A stretch of DNA of 64,000 bases from Cyprinodon diabolis (Eukaryota; Chordata; Actinopteri; Cyprinodontiformes; Cyprinodontidae), in NCBI GenBank assembly GCA_030533445.1, contig CM060064.1, positions 46,747,787-46,811,786 on the forward strand. Direction: 5' to 3'. Below the pieces are notes generated by a model. The model was given only the letters and a program-made list of their open reading frames with translations, was not told the origin of the DNA and ran no database searches. Made by a program: the position numbers and the translations under genes. This document shows positions 523 through 49,907 of this stretch, piece after piece. Position 1 is the first letter of the stretch; each line of letters starts with the position of its first letter.

Positions 523-1104
523 TACCCTCGTGAGACCATCCTGATCTCGCAAGCTTTTAAGGTTTCACTCGCAGATCAGTCTGGAGACTCTCCGTTTAAG
601 AAAATTTGGAGTCGTTCACCAAACGAACGTCCAATCAGCGTTGGCTTTGAGGCGGGTTGAGGTGTGACGCAACGAGAAGCATGACAGTTCAGTCTAAAGA
701 ACATGGCGGCTTCAGCCGATGAAACTAGCGTTAGCGTGGCTATCGAGCAAGTTTTATCGGAATTACAGAGTATTTCTTCACTGAAAGAAGAGCAAAACAC
801 TGCTCTGGAGGCTTTTCTCAGAGGAAAAGATGTTTTTGCTCTTCTCCCGACTGGTTTCGGCAAGAGTTTGATCTATCAATTGGCTCCTCTTTGTCGTCGC
901 TCTGTTAGTACGTAATATGCTTCGTTGATCTGATTGGTTTATTTGGCCCGTCTATCACCAACATAGGCCAATCAGCTAACCAGTATTTTTGCCCCTTCCC
1001 AAAATTACTTCAACGGAAGGTTTCCTGACTCCGCCAGATGGATTTGCTAACCTGACTCCGCCAGATGGATTTGCTCCGCATATCCATCTGGCGGAGTCAG
1101 GTTA
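523..1104 (+). mobile_element. Non-autonomous DNA transposon carrying a helicase exon, copy 1
   Basis: The ends are TACCCTCGTGAGACC on the left and CAGGTTA on the right. They are flanked by a 9-bp near-duplication, GCTTTACCC at 514-522 and GCTTTACAG at 1105-1113. A second copy on the other strand (11891-12312) shares both ends and also has a 9-bp flanking duplication, so the boundaries are supported twice. Inside lies an open segment with RecQ-helicase motifs (703-915) ending at a GTACGT donor-like site. The right end forms a hairpin (1048-1104). No transposase is encoded. A 9-bp target duplication is typical of MuDR-type elements; that assignment is inference, because the terminal repeats are only about six bases (TARCCT). 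Confidence 0.7.
703..915 (+). pseudogene. RecQ-type helicase N-terminal exon fragment
   Basis: The frame starts at ATG 703 with MAASADETSVSVAIEQVL and runs 70 codons. Residues about 26-60 match the N-terminal RecQ helicase pattern: a Q-containing motif 0 (LKEEQNTALEAFLRG) followed by a Walker A loop (LPTGFGKSLIYQL), the ATP-binding lysine being in GFGKS. The frame ends just after TCTGTTA followed by GTACGT, which reads as an exon end plus 5' splice donor. The remaining helicase motifs (DEAH box, motifs III-VI) are absent, so this is not a working helicase by itself. It lies inside the 523-1104 transposable element. Either the element captured a host exon, or it is a deleted derivative of a larger element that encodes its own helicase. 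Confidence 0.7.
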
Positions 1105-6094: not shown

Positions 6095-6772
6095 TGTTGG
6101 GATCTGGAGATGTAGCACCTTTCTCCACCAGAGTGCGCTGTGGGTCTCCTGGGCTGGAGCCCTCCAGCACACCTGACGTTCATAAACCCATCAGGAGAGC
6201 TACCTACATAAGCAGCGACCAGACCTTCCTTCGACGCCGCAGTGTTGACCTTAGTTTGGTTAGCAACCTGAGCCTCTGTTACCTGAAAGAATCTAAGTTG
6301 TCTCTAAGTGAGAAAACTGGTTCTAACCCTCCTCTGTCTTTGCTCACAGGAAACCTGTCTCAAGCCTGAAGCTCTGGGTGAGCTTAACCTGCCTTCCAGC
6401 CCTGGTGAGCCAAACCTGAAGATTCCTATTTGGATTTCCCCTGCTGCTCTCAGAGAAGAGCTGGAAACTCTGATCAAGGTCTGCCATTCAAAGTCAGAAG
6501 CTAGACGCTGCAGCTGCTTGTGAACTCTGCTGAACCAACAGTCTCTGGACCCAACGGTTCCCTCTCTCACAAGAGAAGCCTGGACCCCGTCAAGGTAGAA
6601 TCAGAATTATCTTCAGGGGGAGATAATTCACTTCACTTCAGTGAACCCAACCTGGACCTGTTCCAGATCCAGTTCATGTTTTTGTGTCAACATCTTAAAT
6701 AAACTCTGTTAAACTTTTACCCAGCCTCCGTTGTGTTCTGCATGTGGGTTTGATATTAAACCAATCATGACA
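6095..6772 (+). repeat. 5' LTR
   Basis: This 678-bp repeat begins TGTTGGGATCTGG and ends CCAATCATGACA, matching 11154-11866. It contains a TATA-like CATAAG (6207-6212), the presumed RNA start near 6236, and AATAAA at 6698-6703. The gag start codon overlaps its last six bases. Confidence 0.92.
6207..6246 (+). promoter_or_regulatory. LTR core promoter and self-primer donor
   Basis: CATAAG at 6207-6212 lies about 26 bases upstream of GCCGCAGTGTT (6236-6246). Those 11 bases are the exact complement of 6774-6784, just inside the 5' LTR. In Tf1, the first 11 bases of the RNA fold back to prime reverse transcription. If this element works the same way, transcription should start at about 6236, which fits the TATA-like spacing. 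Confidence 0.6.
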
Positions 6773-7801
6773 GAACACTGCGGCCAAACACAAAGCCCAG
6801 CAGATCACCTCCAGAGGAGGCTTGAGGAACAGGACGCTCAGATCCTTGGACATGCGCATACCCTCCGTGAGTTGCATACTAAGCTTGAACATCAGAATCA
6901 AATACTACAAACGTTTGCGAGCTACATGGGAAATGCTAATGCCACGCCAGCAGTACGTCCCGTTCCGGATCCACTTCCGCCTCTAAGGTCACCGGCAGTG
7001 ACGTCATTTCCTGAGTTCCGTCCGAGTCCGCCTGAAAGATTTTCAGGTAACCAAAGGGATTGTAAAGGATTTTTGTTTCAATGTCGTTTACTTTTTGAGC
7101 AATCTCCCGGCAGTTTTCCGAATGATAGGAAAAAGATATCCTTCATTCTCTCTCAACTCACTGGACAAGCTCTTGAATGGGCAGAGGCAAGGTTCTCTTC
7201 AGAGTCCAGTTTTTCTTGTACATTTTCCGAGTTCATGTCTGAGTTTTCCCAAGTATTTAACCACGACTCAGATAAAACAATTGATTCCCGAGCCCTGCTA
7301 AATTTAAAACAGGGAAATTCTACAGTGGCTGAGTTCTCCATTGAGTTCCGGGTTAAAGCCGCATTCTCAGGTTGGAACGAATGTGCACTTAAGAGTGCTT
7401 ATTTTAAGGCCTTAAATGATAACATCAAAGACGAACTAGCCACAATCGACGAACCAGCTAGTTTGGAGGACTTAATCCGTTTAACCATCAGACTGGATAA
7501 CAGACTCCGAACTAGAGATAACTCTAGACAAAGAAGTCTAAATTTTTCTGTGTCAGCTCCTGCATTTAATAATGTTTCTGTTTTTTCTGGACCCGCAGAA
7601 CCCAGTTCCAAGCCTAAGTCTAAAAACAAGACTTTTTCTGTGCCTGTCCAAGTCTCTCACTCAGATGGAGCGGAGGTCGAACCCATGCAGATTGGACACA
7701 CAAGGCTAACCCCTGAGGAAAGACAACGACGATTTAGAGGCAATCTTTGTCTGTACTGTGGTGAGACTGGCCATTTCATTGCTTCATGTCCGGCTAAGTG
7801 A
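6767..7801 (+). CDS. gag: Gag polyprotein of the gypsy element
   Basis: The frame runs from ATG 6767 ([14 protein letters not shown]) for 344 codons to TGA 7799-7801. The start was chosen as the first ATG; it overlaps the LTR end. Residues roughly 10-60 form a Q/L-rich, possibly coiled-coil region. The middle (about 85-240) has the retrotransposon capsid pattern with [19 protein letters not shown] and [13 protein letters not shown]. Residues 328-341 are a CCHC zinc knuckle, [14 protein letters not shown], that binds the genomic RNA. The product builds the virus-like particle. The frame is intact. It overlaps the pol frame by four bases and is read in the +1 register relative to it. Confidence 0.88.
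6774..6784 (+). promoter_or_regulatory. Primer-binding site, self-priming type
   Basis: AACACTGCGGC starts one base after the 5' LTR. No tRNA-type TGG start is present. Instead the site is exactly complementary to GCCGCAGTGTT at 6236-6246 in the LTR, as in the Tf1 self-priming mechanism. It lies within the gag coding sequence. Confidence 0.65.
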
Positions 7802-10800
7802 AAAGCCAGGGCCCGTCAGAGGAATTGAGGAGTCTGACGGGCCATCTGAAAACTGATAAAATTCCTCATCTGATGTTGCCTGCTACTCTGTTTTTCTCCA
7901 ACCAGAATCTCACCTTGTCGGCTTTCATTGACTCTGGGTGTGAAAGAAATCTCATTGATTCAGATCTGGTCCAGCAATTAAATATTGAGACTGTCCCTTT
8001 ATCAAAGCCTCTCAGAGTATCTGCTATTGATGGAAAGAAGCTTCATCAAGTCACTCATCAGACGCAACCTCCAGAACTTTTAATCTCTGGAAACCATCGT
8101 GAAACATTAACGTTTTTTGTTTTTCCTTCTGCATGCTCCCCTCTGGTGCTGGGATTCGAGTGGCTGGAACGTCATAACCCCCATATCAACTGGGCTGAAC
8201 ACCACATTGAGTCTTGGTCCACTTCCTGTCATGAGTCATGCCTTCGTTCTGCAGCTCCTGCTATTCAGTCCCCTAGAGGTAGGGGGGAGATGGACTCTCC
8301 TGACCTTACTTCTGTTCCTCCCGAGTATCACGATCTGGCACCAGTCTTCAGTAAGGTCAGTGCGACGTCTCTTCCACCTCACAGACCATATGACTGCGCC
8401 ATAGATTTACTACCAGGAGCCCCCGTTCCCAGCAGTAGACTTTACAACATCTCCAAACCTGAACGCGAGACCATGGAAAAATATATCAATGAGTCTCTAG
8501 CTGCTGGAATTATTCGTCCATCTTCATCTCCTCTTGGTGCTGGTTTCTTTTTTGTGGGTAAAAAAGCTAGTTCCCTACGACCCTGTATAGATTACAGAGG
8601 CTTAAATCAGATAACCGTCAAAAATAAGTACCCCCTACCATTACTGGCATCAGCGTTTGAACCTGTTCAGGGTGCAACAGTGTTCACTAAACTCGATTTG
8701 AGAAACGCATATCACCTCCTTAGAATAAGAGAAGGAGATGAATGGAAGACAGCCTTTAAGACCCCCTTAGGCCAATTTGAGTATTTGGTCATGTCTTTTG
8801 GTCTCACAAACGCTCCTGCTTGCTTCCAAGCTCTTGTCAACGACGTCCTCAGAGATTTTTTGAACGTATTCGTTTTTGTGTACATCGATGATATTTTGAT
8901 CTACTCCAAGAACCTCGCAGACCACAAGAAACATGTTCGTCTAGTTCTTCAGAGACTTTTGGAAAACAAACTCTTTGTGAAAGCAGAAAAATGTGAATTT
9001 CACCAACCATCTGTCACTTTTTTAGGGTTTGTGCTTGAGGGCGGGCAGGTGAAGCCATCCGAAGACAAGATAAAGGCAGTTCTGGACTGGCCGACACCTG
9101 AAAACCGCAAACAGCTTCAGAGATTTCTTGGGTTTGCAAACTTTTACAGACGTTTCATAAGAAACTATAGTCAAACAGCTCTACCTCTCACAACTCTGAC
9201 TTCTGTGAAGAACACCTTTCAATGGACACCTGAAGCCCAGAACGCTTTTGATAAATTAAAAAACCTGTTTTCCAGAGCACCCATCCTTATCCAGCCAGAT
9301 CCCTCTAAGCAGTTTATTTTAGAGGTGGATGCCCAGACTCCGGTCTTGGAGCTGTTTTATCTCAACAATCTGACTCAGACCAAAAAACTCACCCCTGTGC
9401 CTTTTTTTTCACGTAGACTCTCACCAGCGGAGCAAAATTATGATGTTGGAGACCGAGAACTTCTTGCCATTAAACTCGCCCTGGAGGAATGGAGACACTG
9501 GCTCGAGGGGGCCGAGCATCCAGTATTGGTTTGGACAGACCACAAAAACCTGGCTTATCTCCAATCGGCAAAACGATCCAACCCACGTCACTCTAGATGG
9601 TCATTATTCTTTTCCCGTTTCAACCTCATTATTTCTTACAGACCTGGTTCCAAGAACGTCAAGCCCGATTCTCTCTCTCGTCTGTACTCCACTGATCAAC
9701 CTGAGACACCCGAGCCAGTTCTTCCTGCCTCCTGTACTGTTGGAGTAGTTTCCTGGGAGATCACTGATCTCATCAACTCTGCCCTAGCCTCTGAACCTGA
9801 CCCAGGTAACGGCCCTCCAAATAAAACTTATGTTCCATCTTCCGTCAGATCCCGACTGATCCAGTGGATGCATGCAGCTAAATTTTCCGCCCATCCTGGA
9901 GTGAGCAGAACCATTGCCCTCATTACAAGACGTTTCTGGTGGCCATCACTACACAAAGACGTTAAGGAGTACGTTTTGGCATGCCCCATCTGCGCCAGAA
10001 ACAAGACCTCTCATCAACCACCTTCTGGCCTGCTGCATCCTCTACCTGTTCCAACCCGTCCTTGGTCACATATCGCCGTAGATTTTGTCACAGGTCTCCC
10101 GATTTCCAGAGGTATGTCCACCATTTTAACCATCGTCGACCGTTTTTCCAAGGCCTGTCACTTAATTCCCCTCAGGAAACTTCCCACGGCTTTCCAGACG
10201 GCCCAGCTTCTCGTGAAGCATGTTTTCCGACTCCATGGTATTCCACAAGAAATCCTCTCTGACCGTGGTCCTCAGTTCATCTCACAGGTCTGGAAAGCTT
10301 TCTGTTCTGCGTTGAACTGTAAGTCCTCCCTCCCCTCTGGTTATCACCCACAGTCTAACGGGCAGACGGAGAGGATGAATCAACAACTAGAGTCCACTCT
10401 CCGCTGCCTGACATCTAACAACCCTCCTGACTGGAGTAAGTTTCTGACCTGGATAGAATACGCCCATAACTCTTTAAGATCTGCTTCTACTGGTTTATCC
10501 CCGTTCCAGGTTTCCATCGGTTATCAGCCTCCACTCTTCCCTGCAGAGGAGAGAGAGATATCAGTCAGATCAGTCCACCACCACATCCGCCGTTGTCAGC
10601 GTGTCTGGAAGGACACCATCACCACCCTCAACCGCTCATCTGCCACCACTAAGAAGTTTGCGGATTCAAAACGGCGCCCTGCCCTTGACTATACCCTGGG
10701 CCAAGAGGTATGGCTATCTACACGTGACATTCCCCTCAAAGCCATGTCCAAGAAGCTGTCACCCCGGTTCATCGGCCCATATAAAATTGCCCAGATAATC

Positions 10801-11142
10801 AATCCCTCTGCTGTCCGCCTGCACCTGCCTCCGTCCCTTCGTATCCACCCCACGTTTCATGTCTCTCAGATTAAACCTGTCATTTCAAGCTCCTTGTGCC
10901 CACCATCCGACTCCCCTCCACCCGCCCTGCACATTGACGGCCATCCGGCCTACACAGTTCGCCGGATCGTGGACTCCCGTCGGCGAGGTCGCGGATGGCA
11001 GTACCTCGTCGACTGGGAGGGCTACGGTGCGGAGGATCGCACCTGGGTTCCTGGCTCATACATCCTCGATCCGTCCCGGATCGAGGAGTATGAGAGTTCC
11101 CTCCCGTCCACTTCCTCGGGACCGCAAAGAGGCGGTCGTTGA
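7798..11142 (+). CDS. pol: Pol polyprotein: protease, RT, RNase H, integrase, chromodomain
   Basis: The open frame runs 1,114 codons from just after an in-frame TAA (7795-7797) to TGA at 11140-11142; it has no ATG at its start, so it should be made by a -1 shift from gag. The protease has FIDSGCERN (active DSG at 45-47). The reverse transcriptase has YIDDILIYS (Y362, catalytic DD). RNase H follows at about 505-630 and is partly scrambled between 9331 and 9409. Integrase has an HHCC finger (about 693-735, ending CPICARNK) and the catalytic triad D762, D822, E858 (D-x35-E spacing). A chromodomain at about 1052-1100 ([22 protein letters not shown]) presumably directs integration to marked chromatin. 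There are no internal stops. Confidence 0.92.
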
Positions 11143-11150
11143 GAGGGGGG
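11141..11150 (+). promoter_or_regulatory. Polypurine tract
   Basis: GAGAGGGGGG ends three bases before the 3' LTR start and is the expected primer for plus-strand DNA synthesis. It overlaps the pol stop codon. Confidence 0.8.
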
Positions 11151-11153
11151 TAC

Positions 11154-11866
11154 TGTTGGGATCTGGAGATGTACCACCTTTCTCCAGCAGAGTGCGCTGT
11201 GGGTCTCCTGGGCTGGAGCCCTCCAGCACACCTGACATTCATCAAACCATCAGGAGACCTACCAACATAAGCAGCGACCAGACCTTCCTTCGACGCCGCA
11301 GTGTTGACCTTAGTTTGGTTAGCAACCTGAGCCTCTGTTACCTGAAAGAATCTAAGTTGTCTCTAAGTGAGAAAACTGGTTCTAACCTTCCTCTGTCTTT
11401 GCTCACAGGAAACCTGTCTCAATCCTTAAGCTCTAGGTGAGCTTAACCTGCCTTCCAGCCCTGGTGAGCCAAACCTGAAGATTCCTATTTGGATTTCCCC
11501 TGCTGCTCTCAGAGAAGAGCTGGAAACTCTGATCAATCTCTGCCATTCAAAGTCAGAAGTTAGACGCTGCAGCTGCTTGAGTACTCTGCTGAACCAACAG
11601 TCTCTGGACCCAACGGTTCCCTCTCTCACAAGAGAAGCCTGGACTCCGTCAAGGTAGAATCAGAATTATCTAAAAGGACTCTTTAATCATCTGCCTGCCC
11701 AGCTGATCAAACTATCATCTCTGCAGACTTCAGTGAACCCAACCCGGACCTGTTCCAGATCCAGTTCATGTTTTTTTGTGTCAACATCTTTAATAAACTC
11801 TGTTAAACTTTTACCCAGCCTCTGTTGTGTTCTGCATGTGGGTTTGATATTAAACCAATCATGACA
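11154..11866 (+). repeat. 3' LTR
   Basis: This 713-bp repeat begins TGTTGGG and ends ATGACA, followed by the second GTTAA. AATAAA lies at 11792-11797. It differs from the 5' LTR by scattered substitutions and by a block after GAATCAGAATTATCT that is unrelated and longer than its 5' counterpart. Confidence 0.92.
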
Positions 11867-11890
11867 GTTAATAAGAGGGCAGCACTGCAC

Positions 11891-12312: not shown

Positions 12313-12318
12313 GCACTG

Positions 12319-12595
12319 CACTGCAAAAAATGTCAATCTAAATAATGAATTTTTTTTTTTCTTTAATTGAGGACGGAAGTAATACACTTTGTCAACAGAA
12401 AAAGACAATTAACATAAAAAAACAACAAAAAACAATTGCATTGCCTTATTTCAAGTGCATAACATCTAATTATCTCGTTTTAAGAGTAAAAATGCTAATT
12501 CCATTGGTAAATCCTCTCATTTATCTACTCAAATTAAGGGTAAATACACTTAATTTAAGATATTTTTAACTTATTTCTAGATGGTTTTTGCAGTG
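12319..12595. mobile_element. CACTGCAAAAA-type MITE
   Basis: The terminal inverted repeats are CACTGCAAAAA and TTTTTGCAGTG. The interior is AT-rich, with TTAAGGGTAAATACACTTAA. Related, more diverged copies lie at about 53919-54125 and 61432-61605. No coding potential. A hAT origin is likely from the terminal sequence, but an 8-bp duplication is not clear here. Confidence 0.7.
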
Positions 12596-13740: not shown

Positions 13741-15604
13741 GGGTGATAGAATGATTCTACAGGGTATCTGGTCCTTCAGGTCTCTAAAAGGATGATACAA
13801 TGATTCTATAGGGTATCTGGTCCTTCAGGTCTCTAATAGGGTGATAGAATGATTCTATAGGGTTCTGGTCCTTCAGGTCTCTAATAGGGTGATAGAATGA
13901 TTCTATAGGGTATCTGGTCCTTCAGGTCTCTAATAGGGTGATAGAATGATCCTATAGGGTATCTGGTCCTTCAGGTCTCTAAAAGGATGATACAATGATT
14001 CTATAGGGTATCTGGTCCTTCAGGTCTCTAATAGGGTGATAGAATGATTCTATAGGGTATCTGGTCCTTCAGGTCTCTAATAGGGTGATAGAATGATTCT
14101 ATAGGGTATCTGGTCCTTCTGGTCTCTAATAGGGCGATAGAATGATCCTATAGGGTATCTGGTCCTTCAGGTCTCTAATAGGGTGATAGAATGATTCTAT
14201 AGGGTATCCGGTCCTTCAGGTCTCTAATAGGGTGATAGAATGATTCTATAGGGTATCTGGTCCTTCAGGTCTCTAATAGGGTGATAGAATGATTCTATAG
14301 GGTATCTGGTCCTTCAGGTCTCTAATAGGGTGATAGAATGATTCTATAGGGTATCTGGTCCTTCAGGTCTCTAATAGGGTAATAGAATGATTCTATAGGG
14401 TTCTGGTCCTTCAGGTCTCTAATAGGGTGATAGAATGATTCTATCGGGTATCTGGTCCTTCAGGTCTCTAATAGGGTGATAGAATGATTCTATAGGGTAT
14501 CTGGTCCTTCAGGTCTCTAATAGGGTGATAGAATGATCCTATAGGGTATCTGGTCCTTCAGGTCTCTAAAAGGATGATACAATGATTCTATAGGGTATCT
14601 GGTCCTTCAGGTCTCTAATAGGGTGATAGAATGATTCTATAGGGTATCTGGTCCTTCAGGTCTCTAATAGGGTGATAGAATGATTCTATAGGGTATCTGG
14701 TCCTTCAGGTCTCTAATAGGGTGATAGAATGATTCTATAGGGTATCTGGTCCTTCAGGTCTCTATTAGGGTGATAGAATGATTCTATAGGGTATCTGGTC
14801 CTTCAGGTCTCTAAAAGGGTGATAGAATGATTCTATTGGGTATCTGGTCCTTCAGGTCTCTAATAGGGTGATAGAATGATTCTATAGGGTATCTGGTCCT
14901 TCTGGTCTCTAATAGGGTGATAGAATGATTCTATAGGGTATCTGGTCCTTCAGGTCTCTAATAGGGTGATAGAATGATTCTATAGGGTATCTGGTCCTTC
15001 AGGTCTCTAATAGGGTGATAGAATGATTCTATAGGGTGTCTGGTCCTTCAGGTCTCTAATAGGGTGATAGAATGATTCTATAGGGTATCTGGTCCTTCAG
15101 GTCTCTAATAGGGTGATAGAATGATTCTATAGGGTATCTGGTCCTTCAGGTCTCTAATAGGGTGATAGAATGATCCTATAGGGTATCTGGTCCTTCAGGT
15201 CTCTAATAGGGCGATAGAATGATCCTATAGGGTATCTGGTCCTTCAGGTCTCTAATAGGGTGATAGAATGATTCTATAGGGTATCTGGTCCTTCAGGTCT
15301 CTAATAGGGTGATAGAATGATTCTATAGGGTATCTGGTCCTTCAGGTCTCTAATAGGGTGATAGAATGATTCTATAGGGTATCTGGTCCTTCAGGTCTCT
15401 AATAGGGTGATAGAATGATTCTATAGGGTATCTGGTCCTTCAGGTCTCTAATAGGGTAATAGAATGATTCTATAGGGTTCTGGTCCTTCAGGTCTCTAAT
15501 AGGGTGATAGAATGATTCTATCGGGTATCTGGTCCTTCAGGTCTCTAATAGGGTGATAGAATGATTCTATAGGGTATCTGGTCCTTCAGGTCTCTAATAG
15601 GGTG
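13741..15604 (+). repeat. 49-bp minisatellite, about 38 copies
   Basis: The unit contains GGTGATAGAATGATTCTATA, then GGGTATCTGG, TCCTTCAGG and TCTCTAATA. Each unit carries the inverted repeat ATAGAATGATTCTAT (7-bp arms, one-base centre). Variant units (AAAAGGATGATACAATG; 48-bp units with GGGTTCTGG; ATCGGG) recur in the same order about 1,077 bp apart, near 14377 and 15454. There are stops in all frames and no unique spacers, so it is neither a gene nor a CRISPR array. Confidence 0.95.
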
Positions 15605-20005: not shown

Positions 20006-21120
20006 ATGACTGAGAATCTCCACCAGCATTTAGCAGAAGACCAAGTTCAGAACAAGCTGCTATAGATCAGGGCCTTCCTGCAGCTTTAACGAGCTTGGTT
20101 CTGACGACTCCTTCACTCGGATCTCCTGCACAGCTGGAACCAATCCAACTCCTCTGAACTCACAAGCAGAACACAATTCAGGACCTTAAATGTCCCCACA
20201 GCTCTTTTTTCTTAGTGTTTGTCTTAAGCTGTTCGAATCTTAATTTTTCCAGACCCACCAAGAGGAAGTCCTGCCCTGAGGCCCGCCAGCTCCAAACAGG
20301 AACCTCTGTGGGTGAGACAGCCCATCTTGGAAGCACATGTCTGAACAGAGAGGGAGCAGCTGGAAAAGGTTCTGTGAGAATCGCAAAATCAGTCAGAACA
20401 AACTTTCTGTCCGAAATGCGTTCCTGCAAATATCAAAATTAAAATGAAGAATATAAACAAACAGGCCCAGTTTATGTCATATCTGCTGTTGCTATAGAAA
20501 CGGATGCTGAACAGTCCTGGTCCAGTGTCAGTGTTTTCTCTGTTTAGCTTGAACCAAACCGAACTGGGTCGGCAGGAGAACCGAGCCAAGCTGCAGCCTG
20601 CAGGTAAAACCCAAAGGAAGAACCAGGAACAACCCTTGGGGGGTGGGGCTGGTGGGCGGGGGGCTCAGTTTGGTTCGTGCATCTGTGTTCTGTAACATCT
20701 CTGTCAAACAGTAAGCTCTGCAGCGCCCGTGGATGTGGCCCCAGCTGATGCAGACCTTGTTTCCTCGCCTCTGATTGGCCCGTTTGAGCAGCAGATGTTT
20801 CTTCTCTGGATAATCCAAACACGGACTGTATAGAATACATACCGGACCACAGGTTTGGACCTGCGTTTAGAGTAAACTGCTGTCGGAGTGGGATGATATC
20901 TGAGCCTTGAGGTCCAACAGAACCGAATGTGTTTGTCTAAACCAGTGAGGTTCAAGGCCAGAAGCAGTGAAATATGGATGTGGTCATCATGACCCAATAA
21001 AGATGGTTCTGGTGCAGCTCAGAATCTAACAAATTACATCACAGGGAGGAAAGCAGCTGAACCACCGACCAGGAAACAGAAAACACAGACATGAAGAAGA
21101 CTCGACCTGCTTCATCTACT
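20006..21120. other. Unassigned sequence left of the 21-bp array
   Basis: No gene or element recognised. Several 60-100 codon frames on both strands are without motifs. Confidence 0.4.
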
Positions 21121-21780
21121 GCTGCTAGACGAGGTTCTACTGCCATTAAAGCAGGCTCCTATTCTGCTAGAGGAGGTTCTGTTGCTGCTAGAGGAGGTTC
21201 TGTTGCTGCTAGAGGAGGTTCTGCTCCAGCTAGAGGAGGTTCTGTTGCTGCTAGAGGAGGTTCTGTTGCTGCTAGAAGAGGTTCTGCTGCTGCTAGAGGA
21301 GGTTCTGTTGCTGCTAGGGGAGGTTCTGCTGCTGCTAGAGGAGGTTCTGTTGCTGCTAGGGGAGGTTCTGTTGCTGCTAGAGGAGGTTCTGCTCCAGCTA
21401 GAGGAGGTTCTGTTGCTGCTAGAGGAGGTTCTGTTGCTGCTAGAAGAGGTTCTGCTGCTGCTAGAGGAGGTTCTGTTGCTGCTAGGGGAGGTTCTGTTGC
21501 TGCTAGGGGAGGTTCTGTTGCTGCTAGAGGAGGTTCTGCTGCAGCTAGAGGAGGGTCGACTGCAGCTAGAGGAGGTTCTGCTGATGCTAGAGGAGGTTCT
21601 GCTTTAGCTAGAGGAGGTTCTGTTGCTGCTAGAGTAGGTTCTGTTGTTGCTAGAGGAGGTTCTGTTGCTGCTAGAGGAGGTTCTGTTGTTGCTAGAGGAG
21701 GTTCTGCTTTAGCTAGAGTAGGTTCTGTTGCTGCTAGGAGAGGTTCTGCTTTAGCTAGAGGAGATTCCTTTTGTTGCTAG
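21091..21780 (+). other. Longest 5' open frame into the 21-bp array
   Basis: A frame opens at ATG 21091 (MKKTRPASSTAARRGSTAIK) and runs 229 codons of ARGGSVA-type repeats before a frame break at about 21770. The first 25 residues look unique but are mostly degenerate repeat units. RGG-like repeats occur in RNA-binding proteins, but there is no flanking domain and no intron signal that I trust. I regard it as a by-product of a stop-free repeat unit; transcription data would decide. Confidence 0.25.
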
Positions 21781-24700
21781 AGGAGGTTCTGCTTTAGCTA
21801 GAGGAGGTTCTGTTGCTGCTAGAGGAGGTTCTGCTGATGCTAGAGGAGGTTCTGCTGATGCTAGAGGAGGTGCTGTTGTTGCTAGAGGAGGTTCTGCTTT
21901 AGCTAGAGGAGGTTCTGTTGCTGCTAGAGGAGGTTCTGTTGCTGCTAGAGGAGGTTCTGCTCCAGCTAGAGGAGGTTCTGTTGCTGCTAGAGGAGGTTCT
22001 GTTGCTGCTAGAGGAGGTTCTGCTCCAGCTAGAGGAGGTTCTGTTGCTGCTAGAGGAGGTTCTGTTGTTGCTAGAGTAGGTTCTGCTGCAGCTAGAGGAG
22101 GTTCTGCTGCAACTAGAGGAGGTTTTGTTGCTGCTAGAGTAGGTTCTGTTGCTGCTAGGAGAGGTTCTGTTGCTGCTAGAGAAGGTTCTGTTGCTACTAG
22201 AGAAGGTTCTGTTGCTGCTAGAGGAGGTTCTGCTGCAGCTAGAGGAGGTTCGGCTGCAGCTAGAGGAGGTTCTGTTGCTGCTAGAGGAGGTTCTGCTTTA
22301 GCTAGAGGAGGTTCTGTTGCTGCTAGAGGAGGTTCTGTTGCTGCTAGAGGAGGTTCCGCTGATGCTAGAGGAGGCTCTGCTGATGCTAGAGGAGGTTCTG
22401 CTGATGCTAGAGGAGGTTCTGTTTCTGCTAGGGGAGGTTCTGTTGCTGCTAGGGGAGGTTCTGTTGCTGCTAGAGGAGGTTCTGCTGCAGCTAGAGGAGG
22501 TTCGACTTCAGCTAGAGGAGGTTCTGTTGCTGCTAGAGGAGGTTCTGCTTTAGCTAGAGGAGGTTCTGTTGCTGCTAGAGTAGGTTCTGTTGCTGCTAGG
22601 GTAGGTTATGTTGTTGCTAGAGGAGGTTCTGCTTTAGCTAGAGGAGGTTCTGCTTTAGCTAGAGGAGGTTCTGCTGCTGCTAGAGGAGGTTCCGCTGCTG
22701 CTAGAGGAGGTTCTGCTGATGCTAGAGGAGGTTCCTATTGCTGCTAGAGGAGGTTCTGTTGCTGTTGCTGCTAGAGGAGGTTCTGTTGCTGCTAGAGGAG
22801 GTTCTGTTGTTGCTAGAGGAGGTTCTGCTTTAGCTAGAGTAGGTTCTGTTGCTGCTAGGAGAGGTTCTGCTTTAGCTAGAGGAGATTCTGTTGTTGCTAG
22901 AGGAGGTTCTGCTTTAGCTAGAGGAGGTTCTGTTGCTGCTAGAGGAGGTTCTGCTGATGCTAGAGGAGGTTCTGCTGATGCTAGAGGAGGTGCTGTTGTT
23001 GCTAGAGGAGGTTCTGCTTTAGCTAGAGGAGGTTCTGTTGCTGCTAGAGGAGGTTCTGTTGCTGCTAGAGGAGGTTCTGCTCCAGCTAGAGAAGGTTCTG
23101 TTGCTGCTAGAGGAGGTTCTGTTGCTGCTAGAGGAGGTTCTGCTTCAGCTAGAGGAGGTTCTGTTGCTGCTAGAGGAGGTTCTGTTGTTGCTAGAGTAGG
23201 TTCTGTTGCTGCTAGGGGAGGTTCTGCTGCAGCTAGAGGAGGTTCTGCTGCAACTAGAGGTTTTGTTGCTGCTAGAGTAGGTTCTGTTGCTGCTAGGAGA
23301 GGTTCTCTTGCTGCTAGAGAAGGTTCTGTTGCTACTAGAGAAGGTTCTGTTGCTGCTAGAGGAGGTTCTGCTGCAGCTAGAGGAGGTTCGGCTGCAGCTA
23401 GAGGAGGGTCTGTTGCTGCTAGAGGAGGTTCTGCTTTAGCTAGAGGAGGTTCTGTTGCTGCTAGAGGAGGTTCTGTTGCTGCTAGAGGAGGTTCTGCTGA
23501 TGCTAGAGGAGGCTCTGCTGATGCTAGAGGAGGTTCTGCTGATGCTAGAGGAGGTTCTGTTTCTGCTAGGGGAGGTTCTGTTGCTGCTAGGGGAGGTTCT
23601 GTTGCTGCTAGAGGAGGTTCTGCTGCAGCTAGAGGAGGTTCGACTGCAGCTAGAGGAGGTTCTGTTGCTGCTAGAGGAGGTTCTGCTTTAGCTAGAGGAG
23701 GTTCTGTTGCTGCTAGAGTAGGTTCTGTTGCTGCTAGAGTAGGTTCTGTTGTTGCTAGAGGAGGTTCTGCTTTAGCTAGAGGAGGTTCTGCTTTAGCTAG
23801 AGGAGGTTCTGCTGCTGCTAGAGGAGGTTCTGCTGCTGCTAGAGGAGGCTCTGCTGATGCTAGAGGAGGTTCTGCTGATGCTAGAGGAGGTTCCTATTGC
23901 TGCTAGAGGAGGTTCTGTTGCTGCTAGAGGAGGTTCTGTTGTTGCTAGAGGAGGTTCTGCTTTAGCTAGAGTAGGTTCTGTTGCTGCTAGGAGAGGTTCT
24001 GCTTTAGCTAGAGGAGATTCTGTTGCTGCTAGAGGAGGTTCTGTTGCTGCTAGAGGAGGTTCTGTTGCTGCTAGAGGAGGTTCTGCTTTAGCTAGAGGAG
24101 GTTCTGTTGCTGCTAGAGGAGGTTCTGCTGATGCTAGAGGAGGTTCTGCTTTAGCTAGAGGAGGTTCTTCTGATGCTAGAGGAGGTGCTGTTGTTGCTAG
24201 AGGAGGTTCTGCTTTAGCTAGAGGAGGTTCTGCTTTAGCTAGAGGAGGTTCTGTTTCTGCTAGAGGAGGTTCTGTTTCTGCTAGAGGAGGTTCTGTTTCT
24301 GCTAGAAGAGGTTCTGTTGCTGCTAGAGGAGGTTCTTCTCCAGCTAGAGGAGGTTCTGTTGCTGCTAGAGGAGGTTCTGCTCCAGCTAGAGGAGGTTCTG
24401 TTGCTGCTACAGGAGGTTCTGTTGCTGCTAGAGGAGATTCTGCTCAAGCTAGAGGAGGTTCTGTTGCTGCTAGAGGAGGTTCTGTTGCTGTTAGAGGAGG
24501 TTCTGCTGCAGCTAGAGGAGGTTCTGTTGCTGCTAGGAGAGGTTCTGCTGATGCTAGAGGAGGTTCTGCTGATGCTAGAGGAGGTGCTGTTGTTGCTAGA
24601 GGAGGTTCTGCTTTAGCTAGAGTAGGTTCTGTTGCTGCTAGGAGAGGTTCTGCTTTAGCTAGAGGAGATTCTGTTGTTGCTAGAGGAGGTTCTGTTTTTG

Positions 24701-27700
24701 CTAGAGGAGGTTCTGTTGCTGCTAGGAGAGGTTCTGCTGCAGCTAGAGGAGATTCGCTGCAGCTAGAGGAGGTTCTGTTGCTGCTAGAGAAGGTTCTGTT
24801 GCTGCTAGAGAAGGTTCTGTTGCTGCTAGAGTAGGTTCTGTTGTTGCTAGAGGAGGTTCTGCTTTAGCTAGAGGAGGTTCTGTTGCTGCTAGAGGAGGTG
24901 CTGTTGTTGCTAGAGGAGGTGCTGTTGTTGCTAGAGGAGGTGCTGTTGTTGCTAGAGGAGGTTCTGCTTTAGCTAGAGGAGGTTCTGCTTTAGCTAGAGG
25001 AGGTTCTGCTTTAGCTGGAGGAGGTTCTGTTTCTGCTAGAGGAGGTTCTGTTTCTGCTAGAGGAGGTTCTGTTGCTGCTAGAGGAGGTTCTGCTTTAGCT
25101 AGAGTAGGTTCTGTTGCTGCTAGGAGAGGTTCTGCTTTAGCTAGAGGAGATTCTGTTGTTGCTAGAGGAGGTTCTGCTTTAGCTAGAGGAGGTTCTGTTG
25201 CTGCTAGAGGAGGTTCTGTTGCTGCTAGAGGAGGTTCTGCTGATGCTAGAGGAGGTTCTGCTTTAGCTAGAGGAGGTTCTGTTGCTGCTAGGAGAGGTTC
25301 TGCTGCAGCTAGAGGAGGTTCGCTGCAGCTAGAGGAGGTTCTGTTGCTGCTAGAGGAGGTTCTGTTGCTGCTAGAGGAGGTTCTGTTGCTGCTAGAGGAG
25401 GTTCTGTTGCCGCTAGAGTAGGTTCTGTTGTATCTAGAGGAGGTTCTGCTTTAGCTAGAGGAGGTTCTGTTGCTGCTAGAGGAGGTTCTGATGCTGCTAG
25501 AGGAGGTTCTGCTGCTGCTAGAGGAGGTTCTGCTGATGCTGAAGGAGGTGCTCTTGTTGCTAGAGGAGGTTCTGCTTTAGCTAGAGGAGGTTCTGCTTTA
25601 GCTAGAGGAGGTTCTGCTTTAGCTAGAGGAGGTTCTGCTGATGCTAGAGGAGGTGCTGTTGTTGCTAGAGGAGGTTCTGCTCTAGCTAGAGGAGGTTCTG
25701 CTTTAGCTAGAGGAGGTTCTTTTTCTGCTAGAGGAGGTTCTGTTTCTGCTAGAGGAGGTTCTGTTTCTGCTAGAGGAGGTTCTGTTGCTGCTAGAGGAGG
25801 TTCTGTTGCTGCTAGAGGAGGCTCTGTTGCTGCTAGAGGAGGTTCTGCTCCAGCTAGAGGAGGTTCTGTTGCTGCTAGATGAGGTCCTGTTGCTGTTAGA
25901 GGAGGTTCTGTTGCTGTGAGAGGAGGTTCTGTTGTTGCTAGAGGAGGTTCTGTTGCTGCTAGAGTAGGTTCTGTTGCTGCTAGGGGACATTCTGTTGTTG
26001 CTAGAGGAGGTTCTGCTGATGCTAGAGGAGGTTCTGCTGATGCTAGAGGAGGTGCTGCTGTTGCTAGAGGAGGTTCTGCTTTAGCTAGAGGAGGTTCTGT
26101 TGCTGCTAGATGAGGTTCTGTTGCTGCTAGGAGAGGTTCTGCTGCAGCTAGAGGAGGTTCTGCTGCAGCTAGAGGAGGTTCTGCTGCTGCTAGATGAGGT
26201 TCTGTTGCTGTTTGAGGAGGTTCTGTTGCTGTTAGAGGATGTTCTGTTGTTGCTAGAGGAGGTTCTGTTGCTGCTAGAGTAGGTTCTGTTGCTGCTAGGG
26301 GAGGTTCTGCTGCAGCTAGAGGAGGTTCTGTTGCTGCTAGAGTAGGTTCTGTTGCTGCTAGGAGAGGTTCTGTTGCTGCTAGAGGAGGTTCTGTTGCTGC
26401 TAGAGAAGGTTCTGTTGCTGCTAGAGTAGGTTCTGTTGCTGCTAGAGTAGGTTCTGTTGTTGCTAGAGGAGGTTCTGCTTTAGCTAGAGGAGGTTCTGCT
26501 TTAGCTAGAGGAGGTTCTGCTTTAGCTAGAGGAGGTGCTGTTGTTGCTAGAGGAGGTTCTGCTTTAGCTAGATGAGGTTCTGCTGATGCTAGAGGAGGTT
26601 CTGTTGCTGCTAGAGGAGGTTCTGCTGATGCTAGAGGAGGCTCTGCTGATGCTAGAGGAGGTTCGGCTGATGCTAGAGGAGGTTCTGTTGCTGCTAGAGG
26701 AGGTTCTGTTGCTGCTAGAGGAGGTTCTGTTGCTGCTAGGAGAGGTTCTGCTTTAGCTAGAGGAGGTTCTGTTGCTGCTAGAGAAGGTTCTGTTGCTGCT
26801 AGAGGAGGTTCTGTTGCTGCTAGAGGAGGTTCTGTTGCTGCTAGAGAAGGTTCTGTTGCTGCTAGAGTAGGTTCTGTTGCTGCTAGAGGAGGTTCTGTTG
26901 CTGCTAGAGGACATTCTGTTGTTGCTAGAGGAGGTTCTGCTGATGCTAGAGGAGGTTCTGCTGATGCTAGAGGAGGTTCTGTTGCTGCTAGAGGAGGTTC
27001 TCCTGATGCTAGAGGAGGTTCTGCTGATGCTAGAGGAGGTGCTGCTGTTGCTAGAGGAGGTTCTGCTTTAGCTAGAGGAGGTTCTGTTGCTGCTAGATGA
27101 GGTTCTGTTGCTGCTAGGAGAGGTTCTGCTGCAGCTAGAGGAGGTTCTGCTGCAGCTAGAGGAGGTTCTGCTGCAGCTAGAGGAGGTTCTGCTGCTGCTA
27201 GATGAGGTTCTGTTGCTGTTTGAGGAGGTTCTGTTGCTGTTAGAGGAGGTTCTGTTGTTGCTAGAGTAGGTTCTGTTGCTGCTAGGGGAGGTTCTGCTGC
27301 AGCTAGAGGAGGTTCTGTTGCTGCTAGAGTAGGTTCTGTTGCTGCTAGAGTAGGTTCTGTTGCTGCTAGGAGAGGTTCTGTTGCTGCTAGAGGAGGTTCT
27401 GTTGCTGCTAGAGGAGGTTCTGTTGCTGCTAGAGAAGGTTCTGTTGCTGCTAGAGTAGGTTCTGTTGTTGCTAGAGGAGGTTCTGTTGTTGCTAGAGGAG
27501 GTTCTGTTGTTGCTAGAGGAGGTTCTGCTTTAGCTAGAGGAGGTTCTGCTTTAGCTAGAGGAGGTGCTGTTGTTGCTAGAGGAGGTTCTGCTTTAGCTAG
27601 ATGAGGTTCTGCTGATGCTAGAGGAGGAGCTGTTGTTGCTAGAGGAGGTTCTGCTTTAGCTAGAGGAGGTTCTGTTGCTGCTAGAGGAGGTTCTGCTGAT

Positions 27701-28612
27701 GCTAGAGGAGGCTCTGCTGATGCTAGAGGAGGTTCTGTTGCTGCTAGAGGAGGTTCTGTTGCTGCTAGAGGAGGTTCTGTTGCTGCTAGGAGAGGTTCTG
27801 CTTTAGCTAGAGGAGGTTCTGTTGCTGCTAGAGGACATTCTGTTGTTGCTAGAGGAGGTTCTGCTGATGCTAGAGGAGGTTCTGCTGATGCTAGAGGAGG
27901 TTCTGTTGCTGCTAGAGGAGGTTCTCCTGATGCTAGAGGAGGTTCTGCTGATGCTAGAGGAGGTGCTGCTGTTGCTAGAGGAGGTGCTGCTTTAGCTAGA
28001 GGAGGTTCTGTTGCTGCTAGATGAGGTTCTGTTGCTGCTAGGAGAGGTTCTGCTGCAGCTAGAGGAGGTTCTGCTGCAGCTAGAGGAGGTTCTGTTGCTT
28101 CTAGGGGAGGTTCTGTTGATGCTAGAGGAGGTGCTGTTGTTGCTAGAGGAGGTTCTGCTTTAGCTAGAGGAGGTTCTGTTGCTGCTAGAGGAGATTCTGT
28201 TGTTGCTAGAGGAGGTTCTGCTGATGCTAGAGGAGGTTCTGCTGATGCTAGAGGAGGTTCTGTTGCTGCTAGAGGAGGTTCTGCTTTAGCTAGAGGAGGT
28301 TCTGTTGCTGCTAGATGAGGTTCGCTGCAGCTAGAGGAGGTTCTGTTGATGCTAGAGGAGGTTCTGTTGCTGCTAGAGTAGGTTCTGTTGTTGCTAGAGG
28401 ACGTACTGCTTTAGCTAGAGGAGGTTCTGTTGCTGCTAGAGGAGGTTCTGTTGTTGCTAGAGGAGGTTCTGTTGCTGCTAGAGTAGGTTCTGTTGTTGCT
28501 AGAGGACGTACTGCTTTAGCTAGAGGAGGTTCTGTTGCTGCTAGAGGAGGTTCTGTTGTTGCTAGAGGACGTACTGCTTTAGCTAGAGGAGGTTCTGTTG
28601 CTGGATCTTCTC
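21121..28612 (+). repeat. 21-bp tandem array of about 356 units
   Basis: The consensus unit is seven codons for Arg-Gly-Gly-Ser-Val-Ala-Ala (AGAGGAGGTTCTGTT then GCTGCT). It is stop-free in a second forward frame (Glu-Glu-Val-Leu-Leu-Leu-Leu), has TAG once per unit in the third, and reads Ser/Asn/Arg/Thr repeats on the minus strand. Units at both edges are degenerate, as expected for a minisatellite. Variant units (GCTTTAGCT, GCTGATGCT, GCTCCAGCT, GTTGTTGCT) recur in higher-order blocks. Frame-breaking variants (for example near 21770, 22735, 23893, 24755, 28320) mean no single frame spans the array. Confidence 0.95.
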
Positions 28613-44990: not shown

Positions 44991-45076
44991 TACAGAAGAG
45001 GATTAGGGCCACTGAAAAAAAAAAAGTTAACTGATTTTTAAATTTTATTTCAGTTTAAAATGGGAAAAAAGTCAGA

Positions 45077-45683
45077 ATTCTGACTTTGATCTCAGAATTC
45101 TGACTTTGATCTCAGAATTCTGACTTTAATCTCAGAATTCTGACTTTAATCTCAGAATTCTTTGATCTCAGAATTCTGACTTTGATCTCAGAATTCTGAC
45201 TTTGATCTCAGAATACTGACTTTAATCTCAGAATTCTGACTTTAATCTCAGAATTCTGACTTTGATCTCAGAATTCTGACTTTAATCTCAGAATTCTGAC
45301 TTTGATCTCAGAATTCTGACTTTGATCTCAGAATTCTGACTTTGATCTCAGAATTCTGACTTTAATCTCAGAATTCTGACTTTGATCTCAGAATTCTGAC
45401 TTTGATCTCAGAATTCTGACTTTGATCTCAGAATACTGACTTTAATCTCAGAATTCTGACTTTGATCTCAGAATACTGACTTTAATCTCAGAATTCTGAC
45501 TTTGATCTCAGAATTCTGACTTTGATCTCAGAATTCTGACTTTGATCTCAGAATTCTGACTATGATCTCAGAATTCTGACTTTGATCTCAGAATACTGAC
45601 TTTAATCTCAGAATTCTGACTTTAATCTCAGAATTCTGACTTTAATCTCAGAATTCTGACTTTGATCTCAGAATTCTGACTTT
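45077..45683 (+). repeat. 20-bp array, left arm, part 1
   Basis: About 30 copies of GAATTCTGACTTTGATCTCA (variants TTTAATCTCA and GAATACTG). Each unit contains the palindrome TCAGAATTCTGA. Confidence 0.95.
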
Positions 45684-46022
45684 ACAGTTTTTTTGGATTG
45701 CTTACACACTACAGTTAAAAGTAGTACACCATTAGCAAAACCTTCCACCCAAGAAGCAAATCATCAGCCCTTATTTGCACAACTATAAGCACATTGTCAA
45801 CCTCACACTTGTTGCAAAACTCTACACACAGTCATTTGCAAAACAATAAACACACTTAACATACATTACACACAAAAATCTATTATGAAGTCACTTCCTT
45901 GCAATACCAAAGCACTGACTGTCAAATTACTGCACCTTCCAACCAATTGATTCAACACAGTCATCAGGTGTGCAAACACTTGTTTGCTTAATTGTAGACA
46001 CACCAATCAGGTGTATAAGCAC

Positions 46023-46030
46023 TATAAAAA
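46023..46030 (+). promoter_or_regulatory. TATA box of the transposase gene
   Basis: TATAAAAA lies 33 bases upstream of the presumed start codon at 46063, inside the transposon. Confidence 0.55.
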
Positions 46031-46062
46031 GCAGCAGGTGAGTTCATCGGTCTTCAAGCACA

Positions 46063-47629
46063 ATGTAAAGAGTCAGAGAAATAGTAAGACGAGGTGGAGG
46101 AGAAAGAGGAGGACAAGGACAAGGACAAGGACAAGGAGGAGGACGACAAGGAGGAGGAGAAGGACAAGGAGGAAGAGGAGGAAGGGGAGGAAGAGGAATC
46201 AACAGAGGAGGAATCAACGGAAGAGGAAGAGATGGAGGCCATGCTGGCGGTAGAGGAAGAGGAAGACAAGAACGTGCTCAAAGAGGACCGAATCTGACAA
46301 ATGAGATCCGTGCAACACTGGTTGACCACGTTGTCAACCACGGCCTGACGATGAGGGAGGCTGGACTGAGAGTACAGCCAAATCTAAGCCGATACACAGT
46401 GGCAAGTGTGATAAGAACATTTCGACTGGAAAATAGGTATTGTAAAAATATCATCATATCAAAAACATCTGCACGGTTTCAGCAACTGCTTACAGTACTG
46501 TATTCTATGCACTATCAGCACTTCTGTTACCTTTTCCTGTGAAATTACTGTACTATTGTTTACTGTTTTTTTTTCTACATAGGATTGAGGGTCAGGAACG
46601 ACGAGGGGGAAAGCCTCCTATGTTCACAGAACAGCAAGAGAGGGAGTTAGTAAACATGGTTTTTGGCCAACAATGCTATAACCCTCAAACAGCTCCAAGC
46701 TAACATTGTCAATAACCACGTCGGTTTCAACAATATCCATCAGGTCTCAACATCAACACTGGCACGCATCCTTACAAAAAACCATATTCAAATGAAGAAA
46801 ATTTATCAAGTGCCTTTCAAGCGCAATTCCGAAAGGGTGAAACGACTGCGGCATGATTATGCAGAGGTATGTATTCACCTAAGCATTGTGATCTTGCATA
46901 CTGTCTAATAATCTTTTACTGTACTGTGATATGTATACTAGATCTAAACTGAACACAATTTTGCCTGACACTGTTCTTCAGAGAGTTTTAGAAATGGATG
47001 GAGAGGAGATCCAGCATGAGTTCATTTATGTTGATGAGGATGGGTTCAACCTGACGAGAACACGAAGGAGGGGAAGAAGCATCATTGGCCACAGAGCTAT
47101 AGTCAATGTCCCAGGGCAATGTGGGGGTAATATAACACTCTGTGCAGCCATTACACAGAATGGGGTCCTCCACCGCCATGCCCATGTGGGCCCTTACAAC
47201 ACAGCACTCATACTTACATTCTTGGACCAATTGCACAACATAACAGCAGCAAATCAAATTGATCATATGCAATACATTGTTGTCTGGGACAATGTGTCTT
47301 TCCACCACTCTGCTCTGGTTCAGAACTGGTTTCAGCAACATCCACACTTCACCGTCCTATATCTTCCACCATACTCTCCATTTCTCAACCCTATAGAAGA
47401 GTTTTTCTCGGCATGGCGGTGGAAGGTATATGATCTCCGTCTCCAGGCTGAGGTACCCCTCATCCAGGCCATGGAGGAGGCCTGTGACCAGATGGAGGTA
47501 GCAGCAATTCAAGGATGGATTCGTCATTCAAGACGTTTCTTTCCAAGGTGTCTTGCTAATGACAACATTGCCTGCAATGTTGATGAAATTCTCTGGCCAG
47601 ATCCAGCTAGGCGAAGAGACAATGTCTAG
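46063..47629 (+). pseudogene. DD35E IS630/Tc1-type transposase, three exons, disabled
   Basis: Exon 1 (46063-46436) encodes an Arg/Gly/Gln-rich tail (GGRGRGRQERAQRGP) and a helix-turn-helix segment (GLTMREAGLRVQPNLSRYTV). It ends at a GTATTG donor. Exon 2 (46583-46866) adds a second DNA-binding half (TEQQERELVNM, STSTLARILTKNHIQMKK). Exon 3 (46982-47629) carries the catalytic core: D in YVDEDGFN (codon 47033), D in VVWDNVSFH (47288), E in PFLNPIEEFF (47396), giving D-x35-E. Two defects are visible: the first ATG is followed directly by TAA, and exon 2 is out of frame at the T run near 46660. Exon 3 is intact. Exons were placed by splice sites and frame continuity. Confidence 0.82.
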
Positions 47630-48106
47630 TTTTTGTTTTGCTTTGTTTTTTACAGTAAAATTACAGTACAATACATAAAGTGACATTTTGTTACAGTATT
47701 ATGAATCTCCATGTCAACATTTTGGGCGTGTTGAGAAATAAATGAGTTTCTTCAGTCTGCAACATTGGTCTTGTGTAGTGTTTGGTGAATTTACATTATA
47801 TTTGTACTTTGTTGATGGTAGCCAACTCTAATCATAGGGAAGTAGATGTGCTAAAAGTGTTTTAGGTTTATCACAGCAGAGTGTAACTCGTGCAAACAGA
47901 GTATAGTAATGTGAAACGTGTGTGTTTCATATGGTAACAAAGTGTGGTTTTTAAACAGAAGTGTGTAGTTTTTACAAGAGTGTTTAATTATGCAAAGGAT
48001 CTGTAGTGTTTTGCTAATTGGGTGTGTGGTTGTGCTAATTGTGTGTAGTGTTTTGAAAACACGGGCCCTGTTTTGAAAATCGTGCTTAAGCAATCCAAAA
48101 AAACTG

Positions 48107-48498
48107 TAATCTCAGAATTCTGACTTTGATCTCAGAATTCTGACTTTGATCTCAGAATTCTGACTTTAATCTCAGAATTCTTACTTTGATCTCAGAATTC
48201 TGACTTTGATCTCAGAATACTGACTTTAATCTCAGAATTCTGACTTTGATCTCAGAATTCTGACTTTGATCTCAGAATTCTGACTTTAATCTCAGAATTC
48301 TGACTTTGATCTCAGAATTCTGACTTTGATCTCAGAATTCTGACTTTGATCTCAGAATTCTGACTTTAATCTCAGAATTCTGACTTTGATCTCAGAATTC
48401 TGACTTTGATCTCAGAATTCTGACTTTAATCTCAGAATTCTGACTTTGATCTCAGAATTCTGACTTTAATCTCAGAATTCTGACTTTAATCTCAGAAT
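48107..48498 (+). repeat. 20-bp array, left arm, part 2
   Basis: About 19 further GAATTCTGACTTTGATCTCA-type units, continuing the array interrupted by the IS630-type transposon. Confidence 0.95.
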
Positions 48499-48777
48499 TG
48501 TGGATTTTAATGTAGATGGGCACCATGAAGGAAGAGATGTGGAGCACTCAGCTTCACTGACAAAGATGTGAGTTGTTTGAGGTGGCCAGTGACACATTGG
48601 TGGAAAATGATGGAATTAGGCAACTTTTTACGTGCCCGAGGGGTCGCCTCATTAATGGAGGAGCAGAAGGTCATTAAAACAAGCGAGCTAGTCTCTAAAA
48701 CAGACATGGCTATGGCTGTATGCTAACATGTTTGTTAGCTGTCAGAATTCAGTCAGAATTCTGAGATTAAAGACAGA

Positions 48778-49907
48778 GGGCCGGATCTATCAAAGGTTTG
48801 CGTGTATTAAAACGTGAGCTATTTCACTGCGCACGCTAAAAAATGTACAAACTGATCTATCAACAGCGTGCTAAAAGGATTTGGTCTTTAAAACGTGCTA
48901 AATAGCGCCTCTTATCCATTTAGTACTTTTTCTGCAATGAATATGCAATATGGGGCGTTTACACGCAAAAGTGCGTCTTGTGGGAGGAGAACATGTAAAT
49001 ATATTAATTTAGCACTCGCAAAGTGATTTATCAAACCTGAAAGCAATTTTGCTAACGGTATCTGACTCTATATTTAACACGTTTCAAAAGAAGGTGCAAA
49101 TGGTCTGTATGCGTAATTGCGCACACATGGCAGCGGTTATTGTCGCAAGAAGGAGACATGGAAATGAAGCAAGGAGACGCAGAGGACGCATTTTTTCACT
49201 CCGTGTGAATATTTTTGGAATGAACGAGGAAACGATCATCAAAACGTATCGTTTATCCAGCATTGCCATTTTGGAGCTGTTGGGGGAACTCCGAATGGAT
49301 TTGGAGCCAGCCACAAGGAGGACCCACGCAATACCAGATATCACTAAACTTGCAACATTGCACTTTTTTGCATCTGGGTCATTCCAGCGTACGGTTGCAG
49401 CGAGAGCTGGGATCTCCCAATCTCGTTTTTCAGAAGTGCTGTCCGACGTTCTAAATGCCATGTCGCCCTGACGCCCTACCGGAGAGAACGCCGACCTCCC
49501 CGCTGCACCTGTGGAGCAACATGCCAATGCTGCGGGGATGCGTACGCGCAGTCCTCTCATCCACAGTCACTTCTTGTGAGCCATTTGGTAAATGCATTTT
49601 TCTACAGGCCAATACAAAACACCAGTTTTTTTTTTTACTGCAGTATGGAGGGGGTGGGGGTGTCACTGTAAGATTAAAATGTCTTAATGCACTAGTTTGT
49701 ACAAACTACAAACTACTTTGCCGCAAACCACAAAACGCGCAAAACCATCATTTAAATAGGGCGTCTCCAACAGTTTTGCACCTGCCACCAGTTACGCAAT
49801 CACTCTTGTTAAATCACCCGCAAACCATGGTTCAGCCCCTCGCGCAAAATTCCAGTTTGCGAGGGCAAATTACTGCACGCAAAATTGGATCTTGATAAAT
49901 CCGGCCC
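48778..49907 (+). mobile_element. PIF/Harbinger transposon, internally deleted
   Basis: The ends GGGCCGGATCTATCAA and TTGATAAATCCGGCCC are inverted repeats, flanked by a 3-bp AGA (48775-48777 and 49908-49910). Three-base duplications are typical of PIF/Harbinger. Removing it restores a foldback-array unit (CAGAATTCTGAG). It encodes the N-terminal part of a HARBI1-like transposase but not the catalytic part. Confidence 0.88.
49049..49471 (+). pseudogene. HARBI1-like transposase, N-terminal part
   Basis: The 140-codon frame includes IVARRRHGNEARRRRGRIFS, NEETIIKTYRLSSIAILELL, THAIPDITKLATLHFFASGS and FQRTVAARAGISQSRFSEVL. These are the conserved blocks ahead of the catalytic domain in HARBI1-like transposases, including the helix-turn-helix (ARAGISQSRFSEVL). 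The frame ends right after LNAM, before the first catalytic aspartate (the usual GCIDGTHI region), and no DDE motifs follow. It is therefore truncated by an internal deletion. The start could be at a later ATG (MVCMRNCAH). Confidence 0.82.

Follow-up and report, generated by a model that had tools for sequence, protein, structure and literature searches.

The AcademH lineage of the Academ DNA transposons was reportedly defined by Kojima in 2020 (Mob DNA 11:15). Of the other systems that bear comparison, Pack-MULEs of plants are short, non-autonomous, carry a gene fragment and have duplications of about 9 bp, duplications of 9 bp being typical of MULEs; Kolobok elements have TTAA as their target duplication; and a hairpin at the 3' end is a trait of Helitrons, which are not known to make a target-site duplication. 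According to excerpts of two sources, AcademH encodes a helicase and makes duplications of 9 or 10 bp, and AcademX of 3 or 4, the duplication lengths being linked to helicase and nuclease (PMC10045372); AcademH is further cited as a source of helicase domains (PMC10799480) and occurs in animals and fungi (PMC10799480, PMC10045372). Regarding teleosts, an excerpt of a third source gives Academ copy numbers of 987 in zebrafish, 791 in medaka and 334 in stickleback, and reports absence in tetraodon (PMC4746887).

Investigation of a 64-kb stretch of a 1.22 Gb fish genome (C3:46747787-46811786, hereafter the window) revealed copies of a non-autonomous, MITE-like element, very probably derived by deletion from a large cut-and-paste DNA transposon of AcademH type. 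Copy 1 (523-1104, plus strand, 582 bp) and copy 2 (12312-11891, minus strand, 422 bp) have both ends present and are 93.7% and 97.3% identical across their two main common blocks; a third trace (52220-52243, plus strand) consists of 24 bp of the 5' end only, with unrelated sequence beyond. The 5' end of copy 1 (523-546, plus strand; TA[G/C]CCTCGTGAGACC...) opens with the short terminal inverted repeat and is also found on a longer copy on C14, and the 3' end (1024-1104, plus strand) contains a local CCTGACTCCGCCAGATGGATTTGCT repeat together with its inverted copy and closes with the terminus GGAGTCAGGTTA. In the window the 18-nt 5' end occurs three times (once with one mismatch) where 0.03 occurrences are expected; the 21-nt 3' end occurs four times (once with two mismatches; three of the four inside copy 1) where 0.00 are expected. 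The common termini which the sequence-only reading had assigned to the two copies are thus confirmed at both ends. Copy 1 exceeds the usual 545-bp copy by 37 bp, and the other 15 two-ended copies measure 545 bp in seven cases and 422-666 bp in the remainder. At 1024-1104 the locally repeated 3' end block forms a near-perfect 29-nt hairpin. A search for phages found none, and the Rfam search gave no result.

Regarding the remainder of the window, the sequence at 6129-11850 resembles, by eye, a Gypsy-type retroelement, with long gag-like (6713-7801) and pol-like (7798-11142) frames bounded by direct repeats about 5.1 kb apart. Tandem repeats include a 49-bp unit at 13741-15604 (38 copies, 96% match), a 21-bp minisatellite at 21120-28603 (about 356 copies, 7.5 kb), several of whose frames are open (AARGGSV/PPLAATE repeats, for instance), and, at 45072-50213, three or more blocks of arrays built from an imperfect 20-bp unit (AGTCAGAATTCTGAGAT...).

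Both copies in the window are flanked by the 9-bp duplications that had been read from their sequence, namely GCTTTACCC (514-522) and GCTTTACAG (1105-1113) around copy 1, matching at 7/9 positions, and GTGCAGTGC, given on the element's strand, at 11882-11890 and again at 12313-12321 around copy 2, matching at 9/9. For random pairs of 9-mers from the window the probability of at least seven matches is 0.0026 and that of 9/9 is 0.00027. Similarly, 14 of 16 two-ended copies in the genome have duplications matching at 7/9 or better (9/9 in eight, 8/9 in four and 7/9 in two), and the other two have no 9-bp duplication (5/9 and 3/9). In 15 of the 16, window copy 1 being left out, the mean match was 0.88 at length 9 and 0.25-0.36 at every other length from 6 to 13, and among 210 mismatched left-right pairs one reached 7/9 and one 8/9. 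The 9-bp duplications, of varied sequence, are a real feature of the element, and its description as a DNA transposon with 9-bp duplications is supported by these 14 copies and by a signal confined to length 9. The seven entries with a 5' end only represent five places, since three of them are one place on C14.

Regarding coding content, copy 1 contains a 70-aa open frame (703-915, plus strand) of which residues 1 to about 63 are the N-terminus of a RecQ-like helicase, including the conserved Q and the Walker A motif GFGKS, and of which the residues beyond about 63 read into the far side of the deletion. The frame matches DEAD in Pfam (E=1.6e-6), and its best match in the PDB is a RecQ (E=6e-6). 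The start codon, RecQ motif and Walker A loop claimed in the sequence-only reading thus stand for copy 1, but copy 2 has an extra internal deletion and is without the helicase start codon and about the first 22 codons. Of the 15 helicase proteins found, six are from one goby and five from amphioxus, a concentration to be expected of a multicopy element.

Substitutions in the frame across 19 copies, the C14 copy not counted, number 19, 18 and 16 by codon position, and the codon positions give no sign of selection on the frame. It is very unlikely that the deletion product with the helicase N-terminus was favoured through a peptide or promoter that controls transposition, for example as a self-made repressor; if true, this would explain why the helicase start is kept in two related derivatives of 952 bp and 1,324 bp described below. 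Equally hard to sustain, and given hardly any credence, is the proposal that selection keeps the frame itself for a short peptide that would regulate transposition, perhaps as a dominant-negative. All eight copies first found via DNA similarity have the frame open over 65-76 codons (L006 taken to 375 bp), and substitutions per site are somewhat fewer in it (0.0148) than in the 5' part (0.0230) and the 3' part (0.0175), but the substitutions are even across the three codon positions, open frames are expected anyway in copies this young, and among 11 further copies (from the protein search, the neighbourhood and the window) two are frame-shifted and one has no start, and copies from the protein search are biased toward open frames. 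The helicase fragment is best seen as a passenger beside the 5' end of a deletion derivative.

The junction of the internal deletion lies at 889-897 (plus strand), with the helicase side on its left, the parent's 3' side on its right and a TT overlap. In homologues the helicase goes on beyond LAPL, and at several genomic loci the first exon reaches about residue 158 of P0001, a full-length amphioxus protein. The sequence GTACGT, which had been proposed as a splice donor, is present at 908-913 (plus strand) but within the 3'-side segment and so outside the helicase sequence; it belongs to the parent's right side because the 3' segment of the 666-bp copy L028 starts at TTCGTCGTCGCTCTG and is there continuous with other sequence. 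GTACGT was rejected as a helicase splice donor, since homologous exons run through and the motif is on the 3' side, and the junction has no splice site.

A protein search of the genome with P0001 gave 80 matches, the best 77 of 5,444 candidates being scored, and these include, in addition to the short helicase loci, several longer ones. At C14:17120696 the 5' end is identical to that of the element, identity over element positions 1-375 is 93-97%, and the sequence runs on through the helicase where the short copies stop, the helicase frame being damaged. Downstream and on the opposite strand, convergent with the helicase, are pieces of a gene with the domain DUF6589, one at E=2e-15 and a second at E=0.006, below the curated cut-off. 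In a DNA search the helicase interior of this copy was found once, the other matches reaching 67-80% (7/7 candidates scored). In the 15 kb from 17121001 to 17136000 no 3' end of the C14 copy could be located, and no intact full-length copy of the 545-bp element's own family was found in the genome searches. That stretch holds frames which appear by eye to be Gypsy-like and Tc1-like.

Among nine helicase loci that were fetched, DUF6589 pieces were detected in five (C14, C12, C8, C4 and C19:23487), each time in convergent orientation to the helicase, and none were found in the other four. Of five helicase starts that were checked, all five are preceded by TAGCCT, which lies 217-228 bases upstream of the position assumed as the start. 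The related element C12:8460539-8471646 (11,108 bp) has TAGCCT...AGGCTA ends, a 9/9 duplication (TGGGCTTCC) and both genes inside; the related derivatives C5:16080383-16081334 (952 bp; AATAATTAT, 9/9) and C19:31808068-31809391 (1,324 bp; GCTCCTTGT, 9/9) keep the helicase start and are internal-deletion derivatives of C12's kind. Thus three of the five relatives whose ends were sought have a matching 3' end and a 9/9 duplication; the sequence read for the C8 and C6 relatives yielded no 3' end flanked by a matching duplication.

What lay on the parent's right side is suggested by L028, which arose by a separate deletion with another junction and whose helicase extends about 13 bases beyond that of the standard copies. 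In the direction from its 3' end, L028 reads MSAKDICRLC from 247 bases in, and the 1,324-bp C19 derivative carries MSVNDFCRICKKNLRIQG almost equally far from its own 3' end; that derivative has MSVNDFCRICKKNLRIQGVIQHTNLIF, with the CR.C motif 249 nt from the end against 266 in L028. By eye, the peptides of both resemble the N-termini of amphioxus DUF6589 proteins, for example DFCRLCDSNQKIKGTLQHCRLIF of P0026, although the same script found no CR.C start motif near the DUF6589 starts of C12, C8, C4, C19:23487 and C14. L028 thus joins the helicase start to what appears to be the DUF6589 start, and we infer that the parent's second gene would start near the right end and run inward; that right end and DUF6589 belong together in the 545-bp family is suggested by L028 and the related elements. 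In Branchiostoma belcheri, the helicase P0006 and the DUF6589 protein P0016 both carry 316,285 bases as the length of their longest listed contig, so they may share one scaffold. Conserved residues of the DUF6589 protein include GGD, EGDGER and DLHLEH. The DUF6589 profile had a best match in the PDB at E 0.04, to an irrelevant chain, no tie of DUF6589 to a known transposase was found in the PDB or Pfam, and no mention of DUF6589 was found in the literature searched.

The sequence-only reading had preferred a capture of the Pack-MULE type, in which a DNA transposon acquired the first exon of a RecQ gene of the host and multiplied it, and had offered as its alternative a deletion derivative of a large element encoding its own helicase. 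Capture would account for a fragment with a start codon and a helicase domain, and 9-bp duplications are also typical of MULEs, but it is now highly improbable: the best match that continues the helicase is not a host gene but the transposon copy on C14, which shares the element's 5' end, contains a DUF6589 gene convergent with the helicase, and has interior DNA with no other match above 80%; homologous exons do not stop at the junction; GTACGT is 3'-side sequence; and related elements have more of the helicase behind TAGCCT ends of their own. The 80 protein matches were taken together, not individually sorted into host gene and transposon, and no MULE family was among the Pfam matches of the pieces scanned, in which the partner protein is DUF6589. 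The alternative of a deletion derivative is supported because the C14 copy with the element's 5' end continues through the helicase, and because the related 11.1-kb element on C12 holds both genes between its own ends; regarding full-length copies, both genes lie inside the ends of a relative, but no intact copy was found in the element's own family.

According to the deletion model, the parent would have two inward-pointing genes, one at the left for a RecQ-like helicase and one at the right for a DUF6589 protein that is presumably its transposase, between very short terminal inverted repeats (TAGCCT...AGGTTA, matching at 5/6 here and at 7/7 in the related C12 element), and would make 9-bp target duplications. 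An internal deletion, probably arising through interrupted gap repair, would have left two pieces joined: about 368 bp from the left end, comprising promoter, leader and some 63 codons of the helicase, and about 177 bp from the right end. The 545-bp product may then have reached its very high copy number with transposase, and perhaps also helicase, supplied in trans.

The family has many copies and is young. A DNA search of the genome gave 1,700 first-look candidates, the best 40 of which were scored, with main matches at 91-100% identity, and the mean pairwise distance among copies is 3.9% (120 pairs). The exact 21-nt 3' end is present at 2,469 sites in the genome and its reversed control at none, these sites not being equal to copies, since copy 1 alone holds two exact 3' ends.

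Regarding genome distribution, all of the best 40 copies scored are located within 6.2 Mb of a chromosome end, and two of the first 100 of the 2,469 3'-end sites, all on C1, fall between 14 and 36 Mb. An unrelated repeat of the window served as control; 100 of its 671 exact sites were listed, and one of the 40 on C1 fell in the same interval. The bias toward chromosome ends was therefore rejected as special to this element and is taken as a general trait of the genome, because the unrelated repeat shows the same bias; repeats are dense near the ends and sparse in mid-chromosome on C1-C3 and other chromosomes. Two further controls were not usable (Tc1, with two sites, and a repeat of 15,806 sites, with sites listed for the first 3 Mb). 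At C1:47010096-47175024 the control repeat occurs four times at an exact spacing of 54,969 bases, which suggests that a 55-kb block was recently duplicated in tandem or that the assembly is at fault here.

The placement as a deletion derivative removes one claimed case of gene capture in a vertebrate, and illustrates how, in a fish, a transposon bearing a helicase and a DUF6589 gene gives rise to short and very numerous derivatives. It ties DUF6589, an unnamed domain, to a mobile element with a RecQ-like helicase, and it suggests that 70-aa 'helicase' frames of this kind should be annotated as transposon fragments.

Compared with Pack-MULEs, the element has in common the short size, the gene fragment and the duplications of about 9 bp, but the fragment of a Pack-MULE is that of a host gene, whereas that of the element very probably comes from its own parent transposon. 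The 3' end of the element folds into a Helitron-like hairpin, but its 9-bp duplications of varied sequence differ from the TTAA of Kolobok and set it apart from Helitrons, which are not known to duplicate their target. A derivation from such another helicase-bearing superfamily, Kolobok (KolobokH) or Helitron, is most improbable, since KolobokH, although a DNA transposon encoding a RecQ helicase like the parent here, and although one red-algal Kolobok has its helicase on the complementary strand, is stated to be known only from fungi (PMC9587614). The element in the window represents a new family of an already known kind, its placement in AcademH being by description; a few, general literature searches found no paper on the 545-bp element's family. 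The Academ counts excerpted for teleosts, 987 at most, compare with 2,469 sites of the exact 3' end in this one family, some copies holding two. Regarding a DDD/E transposase of the Academ type, the candidate is the DUF6589 gene found convergent with the helicase in five of nine loci. A high-copy non-autonomous derivative is what is seen here, likened to AcademH by printed description, not by sequence. As far as the excerpted descriptions go, AcademH agrees with the C14 same-family copy and the related elements in the RecQ-like superfamily 2 helicase, and its duplications of 9 or 10 bp agree with the 9 bp found in 14 of 16 copies of the element and in three of five related elements.
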